56,165 nt of DNA from a virus. Position 1 is the first letter of the stretch, and the number at the start of each line of letters is the position of its first letter. This document shows positions 8,365 through 32,980 of the stretch, one piece after another. The position numbers and the translations under genes were made by a program. Under the pieces are notes generated by a model. That model was not told the origin of the DNA. It saw only the letters and a program-made list of their open reading frames with translations, and made no database searches. The stretch lies in IMG/VR virus record IMGVR_UViG_3300032116_010423, positions 1-56,165 of that record; one strand, 5' to 3'.

Positions 8365-8436
8365 TTAACGATTCATCACGTACATTGTGATTTCGAAACC
8401 AAAACGCATATCAGTTGCTGTTGGTGTTGTCCACAT
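8365..8436 (-). CDS. pqqA: PqqA, PQQ cofactor precursor peptide
   Basis: 23 residues, the usual PqqA length. It begins MWTTPTATDMRFGFE and ends ITMYVMNR. It keeps the MW..P...D.R.GFE-x-T-x-Y..NR pattern of PqqA, including Glu and Tyr in E-x-x-x-Y (E15, Y19), the two residues that are joined to make pyrroloquinoline quinone. A strong AAGGAGAA site precedes the ATG. It is monocistronic, with a promoter-like TATAAT and two inverted repeats upstream and a strong terminator downstream. No pqqB-E genes are in the window, so maturation would rely on host enzymes. Confidence 0.88.
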   Translation of the reverse strand: MWTTPTATDMRFGFEITMYVMNR

Positions 8437-8550: not shown

Positions 8551-9057
8551 TTAGCTATTCAAAACCTTAGCAACTGAGTTCATCACACTAGCAATACGAC
8601 CAATGTCACGAAGCTGTTCAACAGTGTATCCTTCTGTCTTCAATGTCTCGTAATGTGCCTTAACACAGAAGTGACACTTGCCCACAATACTAGCAGCCAA
8701 ACTAAATGCTTCAAAGTTTGCTTTAGTTGTTCCGCCGTGACTTGCAATAGCGTTCATACGTAACTGAGCAGGCAATCCTTTGAGTGCAGGATCATCAGCC
8801 ATCTCAACGAATGGGTACCACACGTTGTTCTGTGCCATAATGCTTGCGGCTGTCATTGCTGACTCTGCATGTACAGGAGCATCTGCTAACAGGATGCTTA
8901 GTACCTTGCCGTTACCTGTTGCGGCTAGTGCAGCCACAGCACAACCCAAGGCTACATCTGCGTCTAGTGTACTGCGTACTAAAACAGCATCAAGATTTAA
9001 CTTGGTATCCTTTGCATAGTCTGGTAGTGCGCCTTTTATTGTTTCAATAAAACTCAT
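8551..9057 (-). CDS. ahpD: AhpD alkylhydroperoxidase
   Basis: 168 residues, close to mycobacterial AhpD. The catalytic KCHFCVKAH (C128, C131, H135) has the CxxC...H arrangement of AhpD. AhpD is a thioredoxin-like reductant of AhpC in the mycobacterial system and has weak peroxidase activity. The peroxiredoxin two genes upstream has the matching mycobacterial-type tail, so this looks like a phage ahpC-ahpD unit for peroxide removal in the infected cell. Confidence 0.88.
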   Translation of the reverse strand: MSFIETIKGALPDYAKDTKLNLDAVLVRSTLDADVALGCAVAALAATGNGKVLSILLADAPVHAESAMTAASIMAQNNVWYPFVEMADDPALKGLPAQLRMNAIASHGGTTKANFEAFSLAASIVGKCHFCVKAHYETLKTEGYTVEQLRDIGRIASVMNSVAKVLNS

Positions 9058-9467
9058 CGTGTTTGATCTCCTAAGATTTTATATCCACGTCCAGTAGGAT
9101 GGATTCCGTCTGCACTCATATGGCTTTTTGGTCTAGGCAATATCACATCACCGTATTCTTTGGCAATGCGTACAATAGCATCGTGCGGAATAGGTTTACG
9201 ATCTTGTCCAGGGTCAATCCAAAATACTCGATCGCCCTTAACAGCTTCTCGCATTTTACGAAGTTCTGCTTCTGTCTTGACGCCTTTGTGATCATTGGCT
9301 CCTAGACTAATAATAATAGTTTTAGCAGGTTGTGAGGAGGCTTTAGACAAATAATCTTTGTTCCATTGCCAACTGTTCCATCCACCTTTTGAATAACTTA
9401 CGCACTCTGGTCTAGCCATTGCTGTACCAACTGCAATGCTATCACCTACTATTAGGCAGTCTAACAT
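9054..9467 (-). CDS. SGNH/GDSL-type hydrolase
   Basis: 137 residues with the SGNH blocks in order: VGDSIAVG (Ser10), SLGANDHKG (Asn near 83) and DGIHPTGRGY near the C-terminus (Asp/His). It could be an esterase acting on lipid, acyl-sugar or cell-wall groups. Short for the family. It overlaps ahpD (ATGA) and ahpC (TAATG), so the three are one operon. Confidence 0.8.
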   Translation of the reverse strand: MLDCLIVGDSIAVGTAMARPECVSYSKGGWNSWQWNKDYLSKASSQPAKTIIISLGANDHKGVKTEAELRKMREAVKGDRVFWIDPGQDRKPIPHDAIVRIAKEYGDVILPRPKSHMSADGIHPTGRGYKILGDQTR

Positions 9468-10006
9468 TATAGAGTCTCTCCCCCGACTGTGCGATTACAA
9501 GCGCAAAGTTCGCCAGTTTGTAGCGCATCCAATACACGAAGTGTTTCTTCTGGGCTACGACCAACGTTTAAGTTGTTAACAGTAACGTGTTGGATTTCAT
9601 TGTTTGGATCAACGATGAATGTTGCACGAAGTGCGGCACCTGCTGGTGCGTAGAACACGCCCAACTGTTCAATCAAGCTCAACTCGCCACGCTGTGTATC
9701 AGCAAATTGTGTATGAGTAATTTTCTTTAGATCTGCGTGAGCATTTTGCCAGCTAACTTTGCAGAACTCATTGTCTGTGCTACCTGTGAGCAATACTGCA
9801 TCGCGATCAGCAAAGTCTTGTGCCAATTTGTCGTAGGCTACAATTTCTGTAGGGCAAACAAATGTAAAATCTTTTGGATAGTAAACGATTACTTTCCATT
9901 TTCCTGCAAAACTCTCGTCTGTAATTTCAAAGAACGCATCTTCTGGTTGTCCTGGCTTAACACCTGTGACTGCAAATTTTTCTAGTTTATCACCAACTGT
10001 TTTCAT
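9467..10006 (-). CDS. ahpC: AhpC-type peroxiredoxin
   Basis: 179 residues from the ATG at 10004-10006, chosen because AAGGAGAAG lies 3-6 nt before it; an upstream ATG adds 8 residues with no such site. Peroxidatic Cys51 in FTFVCPTE; C-terminal LCACN gives resolving cysteines C168 and C170, as in mycobacterial AhpC. It reduces peroxides and is recharged by AhpD. First gene of the ahpC-SGNH-ahpD operon behind a consensus promoter. Confidence 0.92.
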   Translation of the reverse strand: MKTVGDKLEKFAVTGVKPGQPEDAFFEITDESFAGKWKVIVYYPKDFTFVCPTEIVAYDKLAQDFADRDAVLLTGSTDNEFCKVSWQNAHADLKKITHTQFADTQRGELSLIEQLGVFYAPAGAALRATFIVDPNNEIQHVTVNNLNVGRSPEETLRVLDALQTGELCACNRTVGGETL

Positions 10007-10096
10007 ATACTTCTCCTTAGTGTGTGTCATGAAATAATAATTATCAGTTTAAAATTACCTCAGTGTAAATACTGAGTTTTCTACCTGAACAAGTTT

Positions 10097-11796: not shown

Positions 11797-13842
11797 TTAT
11801 TTACTTGTCGCTATAAAAACGCCGTTCCAATCTTTAGGTAGAGTTTGAGTCTGCTGGAACTCACAACGCTCTATCCACATGTCGTAATACTTGTCCATTT
11901 TGCCGTCAAACTGACCTTTTAGTTGTTTACACATGCTAATAGCCGTACTAAACTTTTGTCCTCTGTATGCACCGTGCATTGATTCGTGTATTTTTTTAGC
12001 AACATGATACGTATCAGTGATATCATCTAATACTGTATAGATAGCAATTCCTACACTCTTACCTTTTACAGCAAGATCATCAATCTTAAGGAAGAAGAAG
12101 TCATCTCCACAGCGATCAACTGTTGCGCCGCCAACTAGCAACAAGCATCCATACTCTTTACATTTACTTTCAATACGGGCAGCAGTACTAACAGCATCAC
12201 CTAGTACATCGTAGCTGTGTCTTGCAGTTGATCCCATCTCTCCAATATATCCCAACCCTGTATTAATACCAGCACCCATGCCAACGGCAGGTCTTCCTTG
12301 AGGTATAATGATTTCTTCATTAAATTTCTCCACTGCTTTAAGCATCTTCAATCCTGTGCGTACTGCTGTAGCAGGATGGTTCAAATCTTCAATAGGTGCA
12401 TTATGTATATGCATACTAGCATCACCAATGTACTTAATAATCATACCGTCTGCATCTAGTACAGGTTGTGTAATGGCATCCATGTAGCCGTTCATTATTT
12501 TTGTAAGACCTGCAACGTCATCTCCAAAACTTTCACCTAAGGGTGTAAAGCCGCGTAAGTCTGAGAACAGTATACTGACTTCTTTCTTAACACCCTTCTT
12601 AATTAAGTCTGGATTTTCTTGTAACAGTCTAACTACTGTAGGGCTAGCATAGCCTGCAAATTGTTTCTTGATTGCTTGTTTCTGTAAGAACTCGCTTATA
12701 AACTTAATGCCATAAGCATGAAGCATAACCAGAACAAGCCCGACCACAATACCAGTTGAATCGAAGAGCCAACTAAACTGTGCATAAGCATAGGAGCCAG
12801 CGAATACACTAGTCCCAATAATAACAACACCTGAAATAATACCAACATAAGTCCACCTTGTTAAGAATAATAATAGTATACCTGCTAATACTAGTGTTAA
12901 GATTTCTACACCGTTGGCATAATCTGGTCTCTGTATAACTATACCGTTAATCATTGTAGCAATAACACTAGCCTGCACAGCATGTGGGAATACAGCACCC
13001 ATACTGGTTGGTACAGGATTACTGATACCAGCTGCGGTTGGACCAACAATAACAATAGCACCATCTAGGTTTTTAGGCAACTCAAGTAAACTAACATTTT
13101 TACTTTGTTGACTCCAATCAATCCATACCCGACCTAAGTTATCTGTAGTAACAGGACCAAACTTAGGTATACGCATTTTTTCAACACCGCCTTCAAAAAG
13201 TTTGATTTGAAAGGTTGAATCGCCAGCTGCTACTCGCAGTGTTTCCATAGCTATGCTAGGATAAAGTTTATCGCCAACTGCAACGATAAGAGGTAATCGA
13301 CGATTCACTCCGTCAACTTCAGGCATAGTTGATACAATACCAATTCCTGCTGCTGAATTTTCTAACTGCGGTACGTTAGCAATAAGGCCCGGGTATTGTA
13401 CAATTTGATCTAACCACTCTGGCCCTAGTACAGCACTGCCTGGGTTGCGTGGTATATTTTTAGTTTTATCAGCAGGCACTGATCCTAGTACTACAGGATA
13501 TTGTTTAAGAGCTGAGGCAAGAGTTGAGTCGCCACCAGTGCGATCAGGCTCAGCCATAAGCACATTGAGAACGACAAGGCCAGCACCACGATCATACAAA
13601 TCTTTAATAATTTTAGCATATTCTGCCCTGGGTAATGGCCATTGGCCGTATTTGTCTAAAGCAGCTTCGTCTATGTTAACTGTATAGATGTTATTTTCTG
13701 TAGGTGCTTTAGAAGTAATTAATGTATCAAAGTAGCGTAGTCTTACACTTTCAACGAATGTAGGATCTGCTATTCGTATGCCTACTACTAACGCTAGAGT
13801 TAATAGAGCAGTCCATGGACTTAAAAGTATTTTTTTAATCAT
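11797..13842 (-). CDS. CHASE2-domain adenylate cyclase
   Basis: 681 residues. N-terminal TM (about 9-24), periplasmic CHASE2 sensor (about 30-300), three TM helices (about 310-376), then a class III cyclase domain (about 420-605). Metal-binding D428 (FSDLRGF) and D474 (KYIGDA) and the adenine-type Lys470 are present. The usual transition-state Asn in GDAVN is Ser552 (GDAVSTAARIE), while Arg556 is kept. It would make cAMP in response to an outer signal. CHASE2 cyclases often sit near FecR proteins in bacteria, and a FecR gene lies 1.4 kb upstream here. Confidence 0.88.
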   Translation of the reverse strand: MIKKILLSPWTALLTLALVVGIRIADPTFVESVRLRYFDTLITSKAPTENNIYTVNIDEAALDKYGQWPLPRAEYAKIIKDLYDRGAGLVVLNVLMAEPDRTGGDSTLASALKQYPVVLGSVPADKTKNIPRNPGSAVLGPEWLDQIVQYPGLIANVPQLENSAAGIGIVSTMPEVDGVNRRLPLIVAVGDKLYPSIAMETLRVAAGDSTFQIKLFEGGVEKMRIPKFGPVTTDNLGRVWIDWSQQSKNVSLLELPKNLDGAIVIVGPTAAGISNPVPTSMGAVFPHAVQASVIATMINGIVIQRPDYANGVEILTLVLAGILLLFLTRWTYVGIISGVVIIGTSVFAGSYAYAQFSWLFDSTGIVVGLVLVMLHAYGIKFISEFLQKQAIKKQFAGYASPTVVRLLQENPDLIKKGVKKEVSILFSDLRGFTPLGESFGDDVAGLTKIMNGYMDAITQPVLDADGMIIKYIGDASMHIHNAPIEDLNHPATAVRTGLKMLKAVEKFNEEIIIPQGRPAVGMGAGINTGLGYIGEMGSTARHSYDVLGDAVSTAARIESKCKEYGCLLLVGGATVDRCGDDFFFLKIDDLAVKGKSVGIAIYTVLDDITDTYHVAKKIHESMHGAYRGQKFSTAISMCKQLKGQFDGKMDKYYDMWIERCEFQQTQTLPKDWNGVFIATSK

Positions 13843-15205: not shown

Positions 15206-16309
15206 TTAATTTTGTGTTACAATAAGAGTGCTGGTACTACCTTTATTCACGTTTTGAATAATAGTCTGCCCATCTTGAATTAAGGTAAATGTAATGTTCT
15301 TTGTTGTATCAAATGTTGCTGTGGTATTGTGTGTACCTGCCTTGTATAATGTAACCTTAGTTTGATCATCATTAAAATAATACAACAAGCCTAATGGTTT
15401 GTTTGCTGAGTATCCTGGTAATATTGGATTGTCTAATTCATTGCTCAACAAACTAGCATTTTGTCTATCAAGTTCATTTAATTCATTAAATGCTAATAGG
15501 TCTGCATTTAAATCATTTCTATCTAACTCATTTTTTTTATCTAAAGAATTTTCATCTAATGCACTAAACTTTAACAAATCGATATCTAGTTCGTTAAAAT
15601 CTAAAATAGATTTTTCTTTCTTAGCTAGGCCAGCCTGTTCTGTATCTGCAACTTCTTTAGGTTTGCTAATGATCAACATGTTGTTAATGTTTGCTTGGTC
15701 TAATTTTACAATTGTAGGTTCTGTAGGTACTGTGTAAGCACTGTTAACTAATGTAGCTTGATATGGTACATCTAATATCACAACACCTGCTAGATTTCTA
15801 ACTTCGATAGCACCAGTAACACAGCCTCCGTTTGGAGAACAACTAGGAAGTAGTACTACAAGACTGCGTCCTAATTCATCTACTGTCATAGAAAAATCAG
15901 TGCCTCGCACAGCAATAGTAGCGGTAGGTGTTTTGATAGCAACCTGTTGCGGATTATTTTTTGCTATTTGTCCGCTTGCATAACGAGCTGTGCCTAAGGC
16001 CATATTGATGGCTAATTTACCAGAACCTTTTTTTGGATCATAGACAAAATCATCTATGATCATTTTACTGTGTTCTGTAAGTTTAACTGTAGTTTTATCT
16101 TCAAAGGTTAATTCAGCTTTGGCTTTAGCTGTGGAGATGGTGTCATTCATCTCCACACCCGTGTTTAGACTAGAAGGAATACTTTTCTTATTCCTTACAA
16201 TTTCTGTAGGCCCAGTCTGTTCAGTAACTTTACCAACACCGGCAAAGCTATTAATCGGACTGAGTAACAATAACGTTATTATTAGAACCGTTGCTGGTAA
16301 TAACTGCAT
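15206..16309 (-). CDS. FecR-domain secreted protein
   Basis: 367 residues from the ATG at 16307-16309; a GTG at 16327 adds 6. Signal peptide (about 1-24, ending SFA), then a FecR domain (about 25-190) with LNTGVEMNDTISTAKAKAEL, MALGTARYASGQ and TPTATIAVRGTDF. The second half is rich in repeated LNELD/NELDR segments. The start lies inside the curlin gene by 58 nt. FecR domains sense or bind at the cell envelope; here it may work with curlin or the CHASE2 cyclase. Confidence 0.82.
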   Translation of the reverse strand: MQLLPATVLIITLLLLSPINSFAGVGKVTEQTGPTEIVRNKKSIPSSLNTGVEMNDTISTAKAKAELTFEDKTTVKLTEHSKMIIDDFVYDPKKGSGKLAINMALGTARYASGQIAKNNPQQVAIKTPTATIAVRGTDFSMTVDELGRSLVVLLPSCSPNGGCVTGAIEVRNLAGVVILDVPYQATLVNSAYTVPTEPTIVKLDQANINNMLIISKPKEVADTEQAGLAKKEKSILDFNELDIDLLKFSALDENSLDKKNELDRNDLNADLLAFNELNELDRQNASLLSNELDNPILPGYSANKPLGLLYYFNDDQTKVTLYKAGTHNTTATFDTTKNITFTLIQDGQTIIQNVNKGSTSTLIVTQN

Positions 16310-16922
16310 TTTTAGCGAATACTCCACTCTGTGTTAGTGTCACTGCATTGGCAAGTTGATTAGTGCCACTGCCTGAAACTGTTATTTCTCCATTATGTAA
16401 ACCTACACCTGATGCTGTATGTGTTACATTGTTGTAATCGCCATTAATATTAATTTTACTCTGCACAACGCCACCACTTAACGTCTGTATAGTATTGTTG
16501 CTATTACCTGTAATTTCAGATCTAATAATACTAGCATTACAACTTGAACTTAATGCAGTACCACAACCGATAGTTTGATTGTTGTTGCTACCATCTGCTG
16601 AAACTACTATGGTAGATCCTGTTCCATTAGATTCATTGTTAACAATCATACTAAGTGTATTGCTAGCACCAATTTGACTTATAGTTACATTATTGAGATC
16701 GCCACGAATTATAGCAGCATCATCAACGTTGCCGTTGCCACCAACATTACCGTTTACTGTGTTGCCTGCTCCTGTTTGTGTAATAGATACAGATGTATTA
16801 TCACCGATCTGATCAACATAAACATCGTTGGCCCACGCCCCCGATGACAGCATTCCAGCCATCATTAGAATTGTAAGTACTTTTCTCGACAACTTACCAC
16901 CGCCTGTGATTCTTTTTTTCAT
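16251..16922 (-). CDS. curlin-like amyloid subunit
   Basis: 223 residues from the ATG at 16920-16922, with GGAG 6 nt upstream. Signal peptide ending AWAND, then curlin-type repeats rich in Asn, Gln and Gly: DQIGDNTSVSITQTGAGNTV, ISQIGASNTLSMIVN, SNNNVIVTQSD. These Q-x-G-x-x-N repeats build the CsgA/CsgB beta-helix. Two cysteines (GCGTALSSSC) are unusual for curlins. Encoded with CsgF and CsgG, so probably their export substrate. Confidence 0.82.
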   Translation of the reverse strand: MKKRITGGGKLSRKVLTILMMAGMLSSGAWANDVYVDQIGDNTSVSITQTGAGNTVNGNVGGNGNVDDAAIIRGDLNNVTISQIGASNTLSMIVNNESNGTGSTIVVSADGSNNNQTIGCGTALSSSCNASIIRSEITGNSNNTIQTLSGGVVQSKININGDYNNVTHTASGVGLHNGEITVSGSGTNQLANAVTLTQSGVFAKNAVITSNGSNNNVIVTQSD

Positions 16923-17001: not shown

Positions 17002-18249
17002 TCATTTTGGTCTGTGTTCTGAAAGCACGTCAGCTCGCACATACCCCTTACGCTTCTCTGCGTCTACTACATAATGCCACCCCTCCGGACCTGGAGAAAT
17101 GATATTAAATTCTGTTCCCTTTTTCAATTGCCATGTTCGTTGACTTTTTTCATTTGGTTCTTTGTATACAAACGAATCTTCTTTAAGATATCTAGAACTC
17201 CACAATTGAGCGGGTGGCTTAACTACTGGAGCAGTATTTGTATTTGTTTCTACTTTTTCTACAACTACTAAATGTTCTGGTTGTATAGGAACTATCCTTG
17301 TTATTTTTTCTGCTTTGGGCTCGACTGTTTGGCTTGCTCCATTGCTTTCTTGCTTGACGGGCTCGATCGGTGCGGGTGGTAAGGGCTCTGGGGCTCCTTG
17401 GGGTGCTTGTGAGGTTTGTGGTTGAACCAGCTCATCTTTCTTTTCCTCCTTTACTACAGGCACTTCTTGTGTTACAGATTTTTTAAATCTCCACATTCCT
17501 TTCTTTTCGCCTTCAATGATCATGTCATATACTGCTTGTTCTATAGCAACACGAACAGCATATGTTGTAGGTTCATTTAGAGCCTGCCCGTTTTCTAATT
17601 CTAGTGCTTTGGTTCCAGCATCAACAAATCTTAATACGCCAACGTTATGTTGTGTGCTATAGATAGTTTTGCTCACAGCATTAGAAATTAATACTTCCCC
17701 ACTGTTTACACTTACTAGTCTAAGACTAATTACAATTTCATCTACACGATATTGTTGACTTCCGCCAATACCTAAGAATCGTGCGCCGTTGCCGCCACTG
17801 CGTATGTTGCTGTCGTAGCCAATGATACCACCTTCGATCATAATTCCTGCCACAGTCATTGGCTTTAATGGTCTAGCATCTTTACCTTCATAAACCTCGC
17901 GTTGATTACGTATCAACTGTCGCTCTTTAATAAGGTTATCTAATCCCACACGCTCTACAACTTTAAACCAATTTTTTGAGTCTTGAAGTGCTTTGATTAA
18001 AAATACTTCAGATCCTTGTGTCACTGCCTTTGAAAACACAGCTAACCTATCATTAGGTTTCATTTGTCCTGTCTTGTCTGTGAATCCGTAAACTGCAATG
18101 GTCATTGGAGGACCGTCTAACTGTGGTATTTTATTAGTAAGACTCTCTCTTGGTGTTAGAGCCACAGCATCTTCCCTAGCCGCATCCATGTGTATGGTGG
18201 CGCATCCTGAAAGAACAGTGACAAGTAACAATGATAATATTAATTTCAT
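17002..18249 (-). CDS. csgG: CsgG curli secretion lipoprotein fused to an SH3 domain
   Basis: 415 residues. Lipobox VLSGC (Cys16), CsgG domain (about 45-255) with MTIAVYGFTDKTGQMK, VVERVGLDNLIKERQLIR and GIMIEGGIIGYDSN, then a Pro/Gln/Val-rich linker (about 265-345) and a C-terminal bacterial SH3 domain (SSRYLKEDSFVYKEP through GWHYVVDAEKRKGYVRADVL). E. coli CsgG is about 277 residues, so the linker and SH3 are extra. CsgG forms the outer-membrane pore for curlin. Curli secretion genes have been reported in SAR11 myophages. Confidence 0.92.
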   Translation of the reverse strand: MKLILSLLLVTVLSGCATIHMDAAREDAVALTPRESLTNKIPQLDGPPMTIAVYGFTDKTGQMKPNDRLAVFSKAVTQGSEVFLIKALQDSKNWFKVVERVGLDNLIKERQLIRNQREVYEGKDARPLKPMTVAGIMIEGGIIGYDSNIRSGGNGARFLGIGGSQQYRVDEIVISLRLVSVNSGEVLISNAVSKTIYSTQHNVGVLRFVDAGTKALELENGQALNEPTTYAVRVAIEQAVYDMIIEGEKKGMWRFKKSVTQEVPVVKEEKKDELVQPQTSQAPQGAPEPLPPAPIEPVKQESNGASQTVEPKAEKITRIVPIQPEHLVVVEKVETNTNTAPVVKPPAQLWSSRYLKEDSFVYKEPNEKSQRTWQLKKGTEFNIISPGPEGWHYVVDAEKRKGYVRADVLSEHRPK

Positions 18250-20489: not shown

Positions 20490-20497
20490 TATTTATA
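20490..20497 (-). promoter_or_regulatory. perfect T4-type late promoter TATAAATA
   Basis: TATAAATA 17 nt before the ATG at 20472, with an AAGGAT ribosome site between. It overlaps the last codons of the bilin reductase gene. Confidence 0.8.
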
Positions 20498-21188
20498 CGA
20501 TGTTAGGGAACAGCATGTCTGTGCAAAACTTATCAACGTCTGCTTCATTTAAACCTAAACTTTTCATTACGTTAGGAGTATGGGGATTCTGTCGCTGATT
20601 GTGACAGTACCAATTCTGTGCTTTGATGGTTTCATCAACACCGCATGTATTTTGGAATCCGCTGATTTCATCAAAATATGCATGAAGATTGTTAAGTGCT
20701 ATGTTTATAATTGCAACTGCTTCTTCTTCGGTGTTTACGTTGCCGGCAGCTAACATTTTGTCTGTAAAGATATTCTTAGCCCACTGAGGCAACTCTCTTT
20801 GTTTTTTTGGAATAAAATTTTCTACACTATCTTTGTAGCCTAATATCATAGGATGATCTGCACCACCGCTTGACGGACTAAAATCGTGGAATGCTCCAGT
20901 CATCTTATTTTTGCCGGCAATAACATCAAAGCCGTATATAGGTCCACCGTTGGTTAGTTCTGGAAACACGCATACATGCATCATCCATAGACCTTTAGTG
21001 ACTCTAGCATCAACTACATCTATGTGAGCTCTGCGTACATACTGATTAGACCATACCCTATTAATCCATCCTGAATCGGGTTGATTAAAGTGTTCCATTC
21101 CATCTTCGTGTACTTCATTAGCCTGTTGGTCAAAAACTGCTATGATGTCGTCTTTACACTTGATCAGATGATTCCAAATAATGCTCAA
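20493..21188 (-). CDS. pcyX: ferredoxin-dependent bilin reductase, PcyX-like
   Basis: 231 residues from a TTG at 21186-21188, inside the heme oxygenase end; a later Met31 is the next start. Signature blocks: VRRAHIDVVD (H55), GPIYGFDVIAGKNKMTGAF (D88), HDFSP and the C-terminal YCHNQRQNPHT. The His and Asp match the catalytic pair of PcyA-type enzymes that reduce biliverdin with ferredoxin electrons. Closest in style to PcyX, described from oceanic phages, which makes phycoerythrobilin. No ferredoxin gene is in the window. Confidence 0.88.
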   Translation of the reverse strand: MSIIWNHLIKCKDDIIAVFDQQANEVHEDGMEHFNQPDSGWINRVWSNQYVRRAHIDVVDARVTKGLWMMHVCVFPELTNGGPIYGFDVIAGKNKMTGAFHDFSPSSGGADHPMILGYKDSVENFIPKKQRELPQWAKNIFTDKMLAAGNVNTEEEAVAIINIALNNLHAYFDEISGFQNTCGVDETIKAQNWYCHNQRQNPHTPNVMKSLGLNEADVDKFCTDMLFPNIV

Positions 21189-22600: not shown

Positions 22601-23767
22601 TTATTTACCATTGCTTGCATAAACAGCATTAAATTGCTGAGTTACACGAACAAAGGTTGTGCATTTGCTAAGTTGCTTTAGCGTCTTAGCGCCTGCATAC
22701 GTACAGGTACTACGCAAACCGCCTAGTATGTCCTGTACAGTATTTAGTACCTTACCTTTATAAGGTACTAAAACTTCTCGCCCTTCGGCGCTACGGTATT
22801 CTTTTAAACCACCAAAATGTTTTAGGTTGGCTGCTTCAGAACTCATACCATAAAATTCTACAAATTTCTTTTCTTCTATTTTGCAGCCAGTCCATGTCCA
22901 CTCTGACTGCCCGTCTTCTAGGATACGCTGTCGGGCCTGTAACTCGTTAGTTTCGTAGAGTCTTGTAATGACTTCTCCGCCGCCTTCATCGTGTCCAGCC
23001 AGCATCCCTCCGAGCATAACAAAATCCGCTCCTGCGGCAAATGCCTTGGCGACATCTCCTGGACAGGTACAACCCCCGTCTGCAATAATATGTCCCCCCA
23101 AACCATGAGCAGCATCAGCACACTCCATAACAGCACTAAGCTGAGGATAGCCAACGCCAGTTTGAATACGAGTTGTGCAAACGCTCCCAGGACCAATGCC
23201 CACTTTAATAATATCTGCTCCACTTAAAATTAACTCCTCAGTCATTTCGCCTGTCACTACATTGCCAGCAATGATTACGATTTCTGGATATGCTTCACGA
23301 AGCTTTCTAATAAAAGTTGCAAACCGCTCGGAATAGCCGTTAGCAACATCCACACAAACGTATTTAATGTTTGTTAGTGTTTCGCTGTACACATTAGCAA
23401 ACTTATCGTAGTCAGCTTGTGTAATTCCCATTGAGTATGCTACTCGATGAGTTCTATAATATTCATCTGCATTAAAGAAGTCAATTAATTCTTCTGCACT
23501 ATATGTCTTAACTAGACATGTAAACATGCCTTCATGTGCAAGAATGTCTGCCATAGCAAACGTACCAACTCCGTCCATATTAGCAGCCATGATTGGAACA
23601 CCAGTGTATTGATATTCTTCCCAATTTTCGTGCTCAAAAGCAGGACTGTAATTTCTAAATTTAAACTTACGGAATAAGTCTACTTCCTGCCGAGAGCCTA
23701 ATGTACTACGCTTAGGACGAATTAACACATCTTTGTAGTCTAACTTTATATCTTGTTCAATTCTCAT
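22601..23767 (-). CDS. guaC: GMP reductase
   Basis: 388 residues, IMPDH/GMPR barrel without CBS domains. Start [18 protein letters not shown] and catalytic [11 protein letters not shown] (Cys197), then [33 protein letters not shown]-dependent GMP to IMP. It fits nucleotide scavenging along with NrdAB. GMPR is preferred to IMPDH from the N-terminal motif and the Cys-loop, but a few residues would decide. ATGA-coupled to the oxygenase upstream. Confidence 0.88.
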
Positions 23768-28811: not shown

Positions 28812-30749
28812 TCAAACAATTTGGGTTATGTTAGCCTGTCCAAATCGGAGGCGGCGTCTCCAAAATACTCTCTCAACAAATTGAGCATCGCTCATAGTAG
28901 ATTCGTTAAAGTCAAACTTTAGCGTAGTAGGTACTTTGTGTAACTCACTGGAGTGATCGTTTAAATATTGCCAAACATTGTGTTGGTATTGTTGAGTTCG
29001 TGGATAAGAATTGCGTTCTTTGAGTGGCACGGTAAGATGTCGTTGTAGATCCATAAGGTCCTGATGCAACTCTTGCCCAAGTTCAAATTCTTTTACAAAT
29101 TCATCTAACAAGTCATACCATTTGGCAACAACCTCAGGTTGAAGTGTTAGTATCATGCGAGTATGAAATATAATACTGTTGCCATAAAGTTTGATTCCAG
29201 GTATTCCGCTGTCAAGTGTGCAACGCCCGTGTTTGAACCAATCACATAGTACATCAATCTGTTGTTGTTTCAGTATACGATACCATTCATGCTGTTGTGC
29301 CTGTTTAAATAATTTGGTATACATTTCCTCATAGGAAACATTTTTGTAACGATTTAAGAATCTAGTAACTAAGTTGCTGTAACCGCCCACGTGCCAAGTA
29401 AACAAATTCCAGTTGAATATACTAGCTTCAATGATGTCATCAAAAGACATATGGGCAGTACTAATTACAACATCTATGCTCTCAGCTGTAACCCCAGTAT
29501 TTTCATGAGCCGACGGACTAAAATAATCATAAATTTTTGTAGTCTTGATGTCGTAGACTTCTTTTTGGACTCGATTTAATTCTGCATTTTCTAGTACTTG
29601 GCAGTAGTAGATATCGATATCGTTGTGCATACCTAGGTCTAACAGTTTCCAAAGATTGTTTTGCCAAGACTCAAGTGTTTCTCGCGGCAACCCCATGATC
29701 AATTCGGTACCAATGGGTACACCTTTTGCTCGTCCAATTTCTAGTATTTCAGCAATGTTGTTGCTTTTAAGATTTTTGCGTTTGATAGCATCAAGAGTAT
29801 TATCGTCAAAAGTTTGTAAGCTAATCTTAAGACCTGTTGTAGGTCGTAGAGTTTTTTTGACCAGCAGTTCTACAATGTCAATTACTTCTTGATTTTGATT
29901 TTTAGCAAACGATTGAGAGATACCAGTTGGAGCACCATACTGACGCTGTAGTTCAATAAATCGCTCTACAATTGATCGATCTCGCTCAGGAAAAATACCA
30001 AAATTAGCATCAGCAACGTGTACAAAATCTATGCGGTTACGACTCATCCATTCAAGTTCAGCATATACACGCTCTATAGTAAACTTTTTAATTTTGCTTA
30101 GTGTTAAACTACCCCAGTCACAAAATGTACACTGATACGGACAACCACGATTGGTTTCCAGTGTAGCTGACCAGTTAACCTTGGGATTATCTATTAACAG
30201 TTGATCAAAGGTGCCTGTTAGATAAGGACTGGATAAAATTGATAAATCATCAACTCGTGCTGCCTGACCAGTATCTAGTACGCTACCATTTTGATTTATT
30301 AGCACACCTGGCACATGATCAAAGTTCTCAATGTTACGCAGGATTTCAGTAAAAGTAATTTCACCTTCGTTTTTAATAATAGCATCAATCCAAGGATACT
30401 TAGAAAATATTGCAGGGTCTGACACAGCCGGCTCTGGTCCTCCAAAAATAATTAAACAATTAGGATTGCGTAATTTAAGAGCCTCAGCTAAGTGTAAATT
30501 ATATTGTAGATTCCAAACGTAGGTACTAAAGCCAACTACTGAATCGTTTTTTAATTGTTCAACTACTTGCTCTATTGGGTCACGTCGCCAGATTAATTGA
30601 TTTAATTCAAACTGCGAATCAATGTCTGGTTGAGATTGAGCGTGTGCCCAAAGACATCCAACTGTGTATGGTAAATGAAACGAATTGAGTTCTTCTGGAC
30701 CTACTTGGAAATTTACTTGTACAAAACTAACTTTATGTTTTTCATTCAT
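28812..30749 (-). CDS. B12-binding-type radical SAM protein
   Basis: 645 residues. N-terminal cobalamin-binding-like Rossmann region (about 5-140, VVGFSTYVWNLQYNLHLAEAL, IIFGGPEPAV), then radical SAM domain with GCPYQCTFCDWG (C203, C207, C210) that binds the 4Fe-4S cluster, and a long C-terminal helical part. Class B enzymes do methylations and other radical chemistry; the substrate is unknown. It is not PqqE-like (no SPASM seen). ATG 6 nt after TAAATA. Confidence 0.88.
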   Translation of the reverse strand: MNEKHKVSFVQVNFQVGPEELNSFHLPYTVGCLWAHAQSQPDIDSQFELNQLIWRRDPIEQVVEQLKNDSVVGFSTYVWNLQYNLHLAEALKLRNPNCLIIFGGPEPAVSDPAIFSKYPWIDAIIKNEGEITFTEILRNIENFDHVPGVLINQNGSVLDTGQAARVDDLSILSSPYLTGTFDQLLIDNPKVNWSATLETNRGCPYQCTFCDWGSLTLSKIKKFTIERVYAELEWMSRNRIDFVHVADANFGIFPERDRSIVERFIELQRQYGAPTGISQSFAKNQNQEVIDIVELLVKKTLRPTTGLKISLQTFDDNTLDAIKRKNLKSNNIAEILEIGRAKGVPIGTELIMGLPRETLESWQNNLWKLLDLGMHNDIDIYYCQVLENAELNRVQKEVYDIKTTKIYDYFSPSAHENTGVTAESIDVVISTAHMSFDDIIEASIFNWNLFTWHVGGYSNLVTRFLNRYKNVSYEEMYTKLFKQAQQHEWYRILKQQQIDVLCDWFKHGRCTLDSGIPGIKLYGNSIIFHTRMILTLQPEVVAKWYDLLDEFVKEFELGQELHQDLMDLQRHLTVPLKERNSYPRTQQYQHNVWQYLNDHSSELHKVPTTLKFDFNESTMSDAQFVERVFWRRRLRFGQANITQIV

Positions 30750-31926: not shown

Positions 31927-32391
31927 ATGAGAAAAACTATTCTCGCAGGCGCCATCGGTGTCTTATTACTAACTGGCTGTGCATCTGACAACTATCAACA
32001 ATACGCCCGAACTCAAGAAAACATTGCTCTTGCAAGGGCAGAAGCAGAAATTGCTCGATACAAAGCATTAGAAGCTATTGCCAATTCAGGTGATACTACA
32101 GCTCGAGTAGCCGCGGTAATTGCACTACAACAAGGTTCTCCACAAAACAACAGTCCTAGAGTTGAACAACCCACTAGCACCGGTGACACGGCTTTACGTT
32201 GGGCTAGTGTAATTGTGCCCAGCCTTACTCAAATTTACGGTATTGGAAAAAGCACTGATCTTGCCATAGTCAACAGTAACAATAATAAAGACATTTCTAT
32301 TAACACTAACCAAACTATGTTAGGGTTTGGTAAACTTATTGTTGATCCAATTGTTGGCACAGGCGACGACGTCCTTCTGTACCCACAATAA
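31927..32391 (+). CDS. lipoprotein of unknown function
   Basis: 154 residues. Lipobox LLLTGCAS (Cys18), then an Ala/Glu-rich helix (AEAEIARYKALEAIA) and a Ser/Asn-rich second half with SIVPSLTQIYGIG-like strands. Divergent from the OMP gene, a phage envelope-modifying pair (inference). Preceded by ATAAGGAAA. Confidence 0.75.
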   Translation: MRKTILAGAIGVLLLTGCASDNYQQYARTQENIALARAEAEIARYKALEAIANSGDTTARVAAVIALQQGSPQNNSPRVEQPTSTGDTALRWASVIVPSLTQIYGIGKSTDLAIVNSNNNKDISINTNQTMLGFGKLIVDPIVGTGDDVLLYPQ

Positions 32392-32394
32392 AGA

Positions 32395-32414
32395 AAAGCA
32401 CCCGAGGGTGCTTT
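32395..32414. terminator. bidirectional terminator
   Basis: AAAGCACCC/GGGTGCTTT stem with a 2-nt turn; ends both the plus-strand lipoprotein gene and the minus-strand tmRNA. Confidence 0.85.
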
Positions 32415-32415
32415 C

Positions 32416-32776
32416 TGGTAATTTCTGTTACGAGGTATTTCCTACCCTAAGCAGTGTTTAGGCTGCTAATGCGTATTCGCTTGAATTTGCGTTTACTTGA
32501 TTTGCTTGATTTACGGTCATCGCCTACCGTGTTGCCGTCTCCATTATCTCACCCTGTCGAAACCATGTCAGGCCCATCATAAGAATACTATTTTTCAATT
32601 TTGTGATAAACACGAACATTATTATTGTACATATAAACAACCCAGCATACGCTTACAATTATCGTTATAGTAGCAAAAATTAATCCTTTAATCATTTTAA
32701 TTTCCTTATGGTGGACCTGGCGGGAGTCGAACCCGCGTCCAGAATGCCTTCACTTTGAAGGGATTACAACAATTCC
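32416..32776 (-). ncRNA. ssrA: circularly permuted two-piece tmRNA
   Basis: Order on the minus strand: acceptor piece, intervening segment, coding piece. The acceptor piece (about 32776-32709) holds a CCTTC/GAAGG hairpin, T-arm GGACGCGGGTTCGACTCCCG and 3' CCAGGTCCACCA. The coding piece starts at 32575 with GGGCCTG, which pairs with CAGGTCC (7 bp, one GU), then GGTTTCGACAGGG. AGATAATG and CATTCT can form helix P2. The tag frame ends at 32458 and reads ANQVNANSSEYALAA (or a shorter ANSSEYALAA). Permuted order is typical of alphaproteobacteria. It frees stalled ribosomes and tags proteins for Clp proteases. Confidence 0.92.
32588..32695 (-). CDS. 35-residue membrane peptide inside the tmRNA intervening segment
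   Basis: ATG at 32693-32695, stop TAG at 32588. It has AAGGAAA 7 nt upstream and encodes one TM helix (GLIFATITIIVSVCWVVYMY) plus a short basic/polar tail. It lies fully between the CCA end (32709) and the coding-piece 5' end (32575), so it would be removed on maturation. Random ORFs this short occur; the ribosome site and helix argue for it being real. Confidence 0.5.
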   Translation of the reverse strand: MIKGLIFATITIIVSVCWVVYMYNNNVRVYHKIEK

Positions 32777-32980
32777 TTAAGCAGGCTGAATATTGCTAGC
32801 CTGTTGTCCTTTCATACCCATTGTGACTTCAAATCTTACGCTCTGACCTTCTTGTAGACTTTTGAAGCCACCTGAATTAATCTGAGAGAAATGAGCAAAA
32901 AGGTCTGCTCCGCCGCTATCCGGTGTAATGAATCCAAAACCTTTGGCGTCGTTAAACCATTTTACTTTTCCTGTTACCAT
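32777..32980 (-). CDS. cspA: cold-shock protein CspA
   Basis: 67 residues. [20 protein letters not shown] and DLFAHFSQI carry RNP1 (KGFGFI) and RNP2-type motifs. Binds single-stranded RNA or DNA as an RNA chaperone. Its stop abuts the acceptor piece of the tmRNA, so mRNA and tmRNA precursor may be one transcript. A leader hairpin ACCTCA/TGAGGT (33005-33023) lies upstream. Confidence 0.95.

Follow-up and report, generated by a model that had tools for sequence, protein, structure and literature searches.

A phage-borne gene for the PQQ precursor peptide PqqA and a host-type palindrome upstream of some viral pqqA genes

What might a phage gain from encoding PqqA, the precursor peptide of PQQ, without the enzymes that act on it? 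The question is raised by a 56,165-base IMG/VR virus record (IMGVR_UViG_3300032116_010423), analysed whole and here called the window, which is classed as linear and may thus be a fragment. The original prediction placed a 23-residue ORF with the PqqA pattern at positions 8365-8436; the coordinates are correct and the strand, which had not been given, is the minus strand (Table 1). The encoded peptide, MWTTPTATDMRFGFEITMYVMNR, carries Glu15 and Tyr19 in E-x-x-x-Y spacing. The assignment was borne out by curated models in a profile search of the kind that the original prediction had called for: the peptide matches Pfam PF08042 (E 9.3e-10; 38.7 bits, cut-off 21.1; profile positions 1-19 of 19) and NCBIfam TIGR02107 (E 1.3e-9; 37.7 bits, cut-off 20), that is, over the full length and above both cut-offs. 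A six-frame search of the record for the PqqA family returned this ORF as the single match, and the family search found nothing in any of 14 control genomes. A scan against PHROGs assigned the peptide to no family. As the original prediction had it, no further pqq gene accompanies the ORF: tblastn with Acinetobacter PqqB, PqqC, PqqD and PqqE gave no significant match in the window (best E 0.16), so the full set of genes for PQQ biosynthesis is not present there. The setting is viral: ribonucleotide reductase is encoded, as are a virion structural family and further families of phages; the gene is carried, as an auxiliary metabolic gene would be, in a viral genome rather than in contaminating host DNA. 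Over 419 bases around pqqA the window shares 100% identity with two longer virus contigs (111,581 and 98,040 bases). Together, these results confirmed that the ORF is a genuine, full PqqA gene in a viral record.

Table 1. Position of pqqA, its flanking elements and other genes in the window.
Feature	Position	Strand	Remarks
pqqA, 23-codon ORF plus stop	8436-8365	minus	encodes MWTTPTATDMRFGFEITMYVMNR; Glu15 and Tyr19 are the PQQ-forming residues
Ribosome binding site AAGGAG	8449-8444	minus	7 bases before ATG, read from the sequence
5' leader hairpin	8486-8478 / 8467-8459	minus	9-bp arms ATAAGTACT / AGTACTTAT, 10-base loop
TATAAT, possible -10 box	8496-8491	minus	23 bases past the end of the 15-base operator core
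Operator-like element TTAATGATTTTCACTATG	8535-8518	minus	imperfect version of the host palindrome CTAATGA-N3-TCATTAG; 15-base core TAATGATTTTCACTA at 8534-8520
Intrinsic terminator GCCCCAC-TTCG-GTGGGGT, then T-run	8341-8324	minus	z -2.88
CMD/AhpD-like gene	8551-9057		just upstream of pqqA
AhpC/TSA-like gene	9467-10030		just upstream of pqqA; GDSL-like gene between it and the CMD/AhpD-like gene
CHASE2 and adenylate/guanylate cyclase protein	11797-13842		about 900 bases 69% identical in Melnitz DNA
FecR protein	15206-16327
CsgG curli pore protein	17002-18249
Ferredoxin-dependent bilin reductase family protein	20493-21188		58.1 bits, cut-off 31
IMP dehydrogenase / GMP reductase-type protein	22601-23767
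Radical SAM protein with B12-binding domain	28812-30749		645 residues
tmRNA gene, betaproteobacterial / permuted type	32367-32801	minus	tag ANSSEYALAA; Rfam match

The gene appears equipped as a unit of its own. A strong ribosome site, a leader with an inverted repeat and a strong terminator had been predicted, and all three are present: AAGGAG ahead of the start codon; the two hairpin arms, though the folding energy of the 100-base leader is not exceptional (z -1.13); and a UUCG-loop stem followed by a T-run. Among the 371 viral loci having sufficient upstream DNA, 366 showed a ribosome-site-like 4-mer at -18 to -5, against 100 after base shuffling. Perfect stems of at least 7 bp were found in 82 of 273 distinct viral leaders and in 16 of 273 single shuffles that preserved base composition only. 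The hairpin itself was analysed in a selection of nine related leaders out of 32 (31 plus that of the window), several of the 32 having different or only short stems. In the nine, 98.5% of cells were paired, compared with 15-40% in slid controls; two of eight hairpin pairs had changed on both sides (in two sequences, perhaps through one event); and three of five measures lay above all 500 shuffles, the remaining two being reached by 107 and 343 of the 500. Leader and terminator-like structures are conserved among the window's relatives, and the hairpin can reasonably be read as a transcript-stabilising 5' element.

Conservation in related phages, on which the original prediction also depended, was seen at two levels. 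When the peptide was compared by tblastn with 50,697 phage records, 12 matched. Two of these, contigs named 'Acinetobacter phage MD-2021a' (L009 and L010), have pqqBCDE following pqqA in a bacterial row and look like host chromosome; they were excluded from the count. The ten counted as phage are P19250A, Venkman, MEP301, MEP401, MEP402, four Melnitz isolates and ctXG6705, a podovirus record from a spring; nine have hosts in the Methylophilales/Methylophilaceae. They include Kyanoviridae, Zobellviridae and unassigned Caudoviricetes, and the neighbours of pqqA differ among them. NCBI taxonomy lists further Methylophilales phages, for example MEP431-434, and we do not claim pqqA for every methylophage. 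None of the ten records names pqqA: five have no annotation under the match and five have a 'hypothetical protein', which in the two records examined (one Melnitz isolate and ctXG6705) is an ORF on the strand opposite pqqA. A length of 23 codons is below usual gene-calling limits, and this, together with the lack of a PHROGs family, may explain why the gene went unnamed.

Pattern scans of IMG/VR yielded at least 375 distinct loci, 374 of them with a PqqA-like ORF after exclusion of one that is not PqqA-like (L493). These counts are lower bounds. One of the scans used a pattern for a single peptide, and which viruses entered the set depends on the search patterns chosen; alphaproteobacterial-type PqqA, for which one pattern was tried, was found in one virus contig. 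Outside the search motif, 4000 sampled pairs from 228 distinct 23-codon sequences gave pN 0.159 and pS 0.566 (pN/pS 0.28), so the viral peptide is under purifying selection. A scan free of the Glu and Tyr codons, made for one PqqA subtype (at least 120 rows), produced 35 new loci, all 35 with both residues; since the earlier patterns required both, any locus missing either would necessarily have been among the 35. Host contamination was considered as a source of the viral genes and rejected for 120 loci listed, none of which had pqqB-E on the DNA covered; cultured phages carrying the gene speak against it too. Thus, viral pqqA is widespread, poorly annotated and commoner than published reports suggest.

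On the host side, pqqA was found in all 60 genomes of a family set defined through Methylophilaceae bacterium 11 (L186): 279 copies, with a median of 5, a range of 1-12 and more than one copy in 58 genomes. PqqE scored above cut-off once in 57 of these genomes, twice in two and not at all in one. According to the consulted parts of PMC4109929, Methylophilaceae multiply pqqA (3-12 copies) and as a rule not the other pqq genes, and their core genome includes XoxF and PQQ biosynthesis; our count of five pqqA in Methylophilaceae bacterium 11 agrees with that source. Availability of PqqA was rate-determining in Methylovorus MP688, as PMC11317620, in the portion consulted, cites from Ge 2015. One host-family copy lying behind the palindrome described below (L531, G068:C124:3900-7900) reads ...RFGSEVTMY..., with Phe14 changed to Ser.

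Is the window, then, from a phage of such a host? Three viral peptides are identical to host-locus peptides among the matches listed. The window's exact peptide is common to several virus contigs and was absent, among the matches listed, from 129 host peptides, a sample that includes Burkholderiaceae and others. In a comparison of 7.6 kb of the window, DNA of the OM43 phage Melnitz matched at 12% coverage and 69% identity. The tmRNA gene was considered as a guide to the host and set aside: its Rfam match is betaproteobacterial, but the matches in phage DNA are short and belong to phages that infect other hosts. Nor is the host settled by the NrdA and DUF6267-type proteins. Overall, we regard the host as likely a methylotroph and probably a member of the Methylophilaceae. 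The window also encodes a bilin reductase family protein, its host being presumably non-photosynthetic, as well as the CHASE2-cyclase, CsgG and FecR proteins listed in Table 1.

A conserved block upstream of pqqA was detected when leaders related to that of the window were aligned. The 18-base element defined from it, with up to four mismatches and within 220 bases upstream of pqqA, was found in 145 of 360 viral loci and in five of 360 with the reversed motif, the only control to which this count is compared, because the element was derived from the viral alignment itself. At the same tolerance it occurred in six of 126 host upstream regions and in two of seven cultured or named phage loci. 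The host genomes provided a more independent test. The exact palindrome CTAATGA-N3-TCATTAG has 19 sites across the 60 host-family genomes (in 15 of them), against one for the reversed pattern; 18 of the 19 lie upstream of pqqA, sixteen in fetched loci and two (G069:C35 and G065:C139) by coordinates, the single exception being G085:C13 (L527). The window's 15-base core is of this host type, with one mismatch in 12 to TAATGA-N3-TCATTA. After de-duplication and length filtering of the at least 374 viral loci, a set containing near-identical contigs, 209 regions remained; with up to one mismatch in 12 the shorter palindrome was present in 25 of them (1 reversed, 0.2 shuffled), and with up to two in 58 (9 reversed). 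The corresponding figures for 121 host regions were 20 and 40, with no reversed match at either level. A clear element is therefore confined to a minority of viral pqqA loci. An element of the TTAATGATTTTCACTATG type occurs once in the window, and the 111-kb and 98-kb relatives have one additional copy each (3 mismatches). The single occurrence in the window and the palindromic form upstream of host-family pqqA took weight from the idea that the block is a phage promoter; as 18 of 19 exact host palindromes precede pqqA, some viruses seem to retain a host pqqA control site.

The commonest position of this site differs between hosts and viruses. In hosts, TATAAT-like hexamers (up to one mismatch) most often follow the palindrome by 45 bases (12 in 40 sites); the viral peak is at 23 bases (29 in 93 sites, counted before de-duplication, with five at 45). 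Of the 82 such hexamers in the de-duplicated viral regions, 45 lie at the three matching positions. The window has the distance of 23 and so departs from the host distance by 22 bases. A sigma-70 consensus scan listed no promoter before the window's pqqA, since it also requires a -35 hexamer, which is absent there; the missing hexamer is compatible with an activator-dependent promoter. A shift of 22 bases is close to two turns of the helix, and CRP-type activators usually act from positions not far from centres of about -42 and -64. On these grounds one host activator might serve the host and viral pqqA sites alike. The palindrome core also resembles the Fur box, which we take as a lead.

Taking as starting points the peptide, its conservation, its viral context, the upstream element and the absence of other pqq genes, all of them read from sequence, we consider it likely that the phage feeds a consumed precursor to host PqqD and PqqE and so keeps methanol dehydrogenase supplied with PQQ while infection proceeds. 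On this view, a tailed phage whose host is a methylotroph, probably a Methylophilaceae-like one, would have captured a self-contained pqqA and would transcribe the peptide from a promoter retaining a version of the control site found at host pqqA genes. Glu15 would be crosslinked to Tyr19 by host PqqD and PqqE, and the remaining host PQQ enzymes would complete the cofactor. PqqA is consumed, one peptide per PQQ. Since the peptide is spent at one per cofactor while the enzymes are re-used, one small gene would suffice for PQQ supply: host transcription may decay with the host enzymes kept, and making PqqA only could sustain the cofactor. By keeping or raising PQQ while host genes shut down, phage pqqA would maintain or increase methanol dehydrogenase activity and the energy yield, with a presumed effect on phage yield. 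Raised precursor supply had been put forward in the original prediction; it has gained support of an indirect kind, from the multiple host pqqA copies, the reported rate-determining role of PqqA and the host-type upstream element, and none beyond that.

The gene content of the viruses agrees with supply of the peptide only, pqqA being carried without PqqE and only very rarely together with a PQQ alcohol dehydrogenase. No PqqE scored above cut-off in 50 long viral records; weak radical-SAM matches in five of the 50 stayed below it, and the tblastn match of the window with PqqE was insignificant, so a virus-encoded PqqE was rejected. Nor does the window's radical SAM protein qualify, since it has a B12-binding domain. 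No methanol dehydrogenase was found in the window, and the one 'dehydrogenase' considered as a PQQ enzyme is an IMP dehydrogenase-type protein instead. In other pqqA-bearing virus records, many of which are fragments, a PQQ alcohol dehydrogenase was found in one of 99 (1 of 50 and 0 of 49). This 72-kb record (L533, G009:C1:30000-40000) encodes a 624-residue PQQ alcohol dehydrogenase of methanol type followed by a 946-residue formate dehydrogenase-type protein, the latter found in one of 50 pqqA-bearing records, window included; FecR and curlin-repeat genes adjoin both dehydrogenases. Such a virus would appear to put resources into the energy side of methanol oxidation.

Other readings of the gene must be weighed against precursor supply. 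The original prediction had also suggested that PqqE could be titrated. Phage PqqA would then be a decoy that titrates or stalls host PqqE/PqqD, lowering PQQ and slowing competing host metabolism, and the encoding of PqqA without enzymes is what one expects of a titrating ligand. A decoy should occasionally lose Glu or Tyr, yet the reactive residues and their flanking pattern are conserved and the scan free of both codons, in the one subtype covered, found no contig missing either; moreover, the PQQ alcohol dehydrogenase on one relative's record points to raised use of PQQ. Nothing came to light in favour of titration, which is less likely than supply and, in our estimate, quite improbable. 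Alternatively, a host mini-gene of 69 coding bases might simply be picked up often and be selectively neutral. With a median of five pqqA copies per host-family genome capture would be easy, and the three viral peptides identical to host ones among the matches listed fit such a history; a neutral passenger, however, would not be expected to show a pN/pS of 0.28 outside the search motif where pS is 0.57, to retain a ribosome site in 366 of 371 loci, or to keep leader and terminator-like structures in relatives. We consider this account unlikely.

The peptide could also be a real PqqA that serves something other than methanol oxidation, such as a different PQQ enzyme, the handling of lanthanides, or an antioxidant role of PQQ alongside the AhpC/AhpD-like genes. 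The CMD/AhpD-like and AhpC/TSA-like genes near the window's pqqA, possibly a peroxide defence pair, speak for such a use, as does the suggestion, in the portion of PMC11317620 consulted, of a possible part in an alternative lanthanide uptake system. Against it, the named phage hosts are Methylophilales/Methylophilaceae, whose core genome, according to the consulted parts of PMC4109929, holds XoxF and PQQ biosynthesis, and we strongly doubt that methanol oxidation is bypassed. Finally, the operator rather than the peptide might matter, extra copies of the control site soaking up the host regulator. The site is indeed conserved in the window's relatives and present once in the window, but purifying selection acts on the peptide and a clear site is missing from many viral pqqA genes, which makes a regulator sponge very improbable. 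Precursor supply thus remains the reading that we favour.

The original prediction knew of no described phage PqqA, which was mistaken. Both PqqA and methanol dehydrogenase had been described from phages of Lake Baikal methylotrophs by Coutinho et al. 2020 (PMC7678222, in the parts consulted). Their VP_266, a T4-like phage of freshwater Methylophilaceae, has PqqA like the window and was interpreted as aiding methanol oxidation, a likeness that rests on description rather than sequence; VP_266 and VP_139 encode methanol dehydrogenase, whereas the window and 98 of the 99 other records do not. VP_139 also has radical SAM proteins that the authors tied to PQQ synthesis. Neither a control element nor the frequency of pqqA was seen in the consulted parts of that paper. 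PMC13188868 (2026) describes viral pqqA, pqqE and pqqD in reservoir sediment metagenomes, interpreted, in the parts consulted, as inorganic-phosphate-solubilising, with no link to methylotrophs seen there. The OM43/LD28 phages P19250A, Venkman, MEP301, MEP401, MEP402 and Melnitz have the same gene as the window, unnamed as pqqA in their records, and a term search of the Melnitz, MEP301 and Venkman papers did not find phage pqqA. Chromosomal pqqA of the Methylophilaceae (PMC4109929, in part) belongs to the same peptide family, is present in several copies per genome and has the same palindrome upstream of some copies; unlike the viral gene it is chromosomal, and has its -10-like hexamer most often 45 rather than 23 bases past the palindrome. 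PMC9851590, in the portion consulted, mentions pqqA promoters and names no binding site or regulator. A literature search of the titles and abstract openings listed, with the palindrome itself, subscription papers and preprints outside its scope, returned nothing on the palindromic element or the frequency of viral pqqA. Phage PqqA itself is thus already known; the regulatory and quantitative side is new as far as we have seen.

A wider reading, to which we give slightly less than even chances, is that several lineages of methylotroph phages captured a regulated cassette, made up of the PqqA peptide and a host pqqA activator site moved by about two helix turns, from a centre near -64, commonest in hosts, to one near -42. 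In that case the precursor peptide of a cofactor would give viruses a general lever on methanol oxidation in aquatic systems, controlled by the regulator that the host itself uses for PQQ supply and firing when the cell depends on PQQ. The pqqA palindrome is in itself a starting point for finding the Methylophilaceae regulator of PQQ supply, and the idea can be tested in cultured systems, for example Melnitz and Venkman on OM43. If the proposal is true, viruses would steer methanol oxidation through one consumed peptide and no enzyme.
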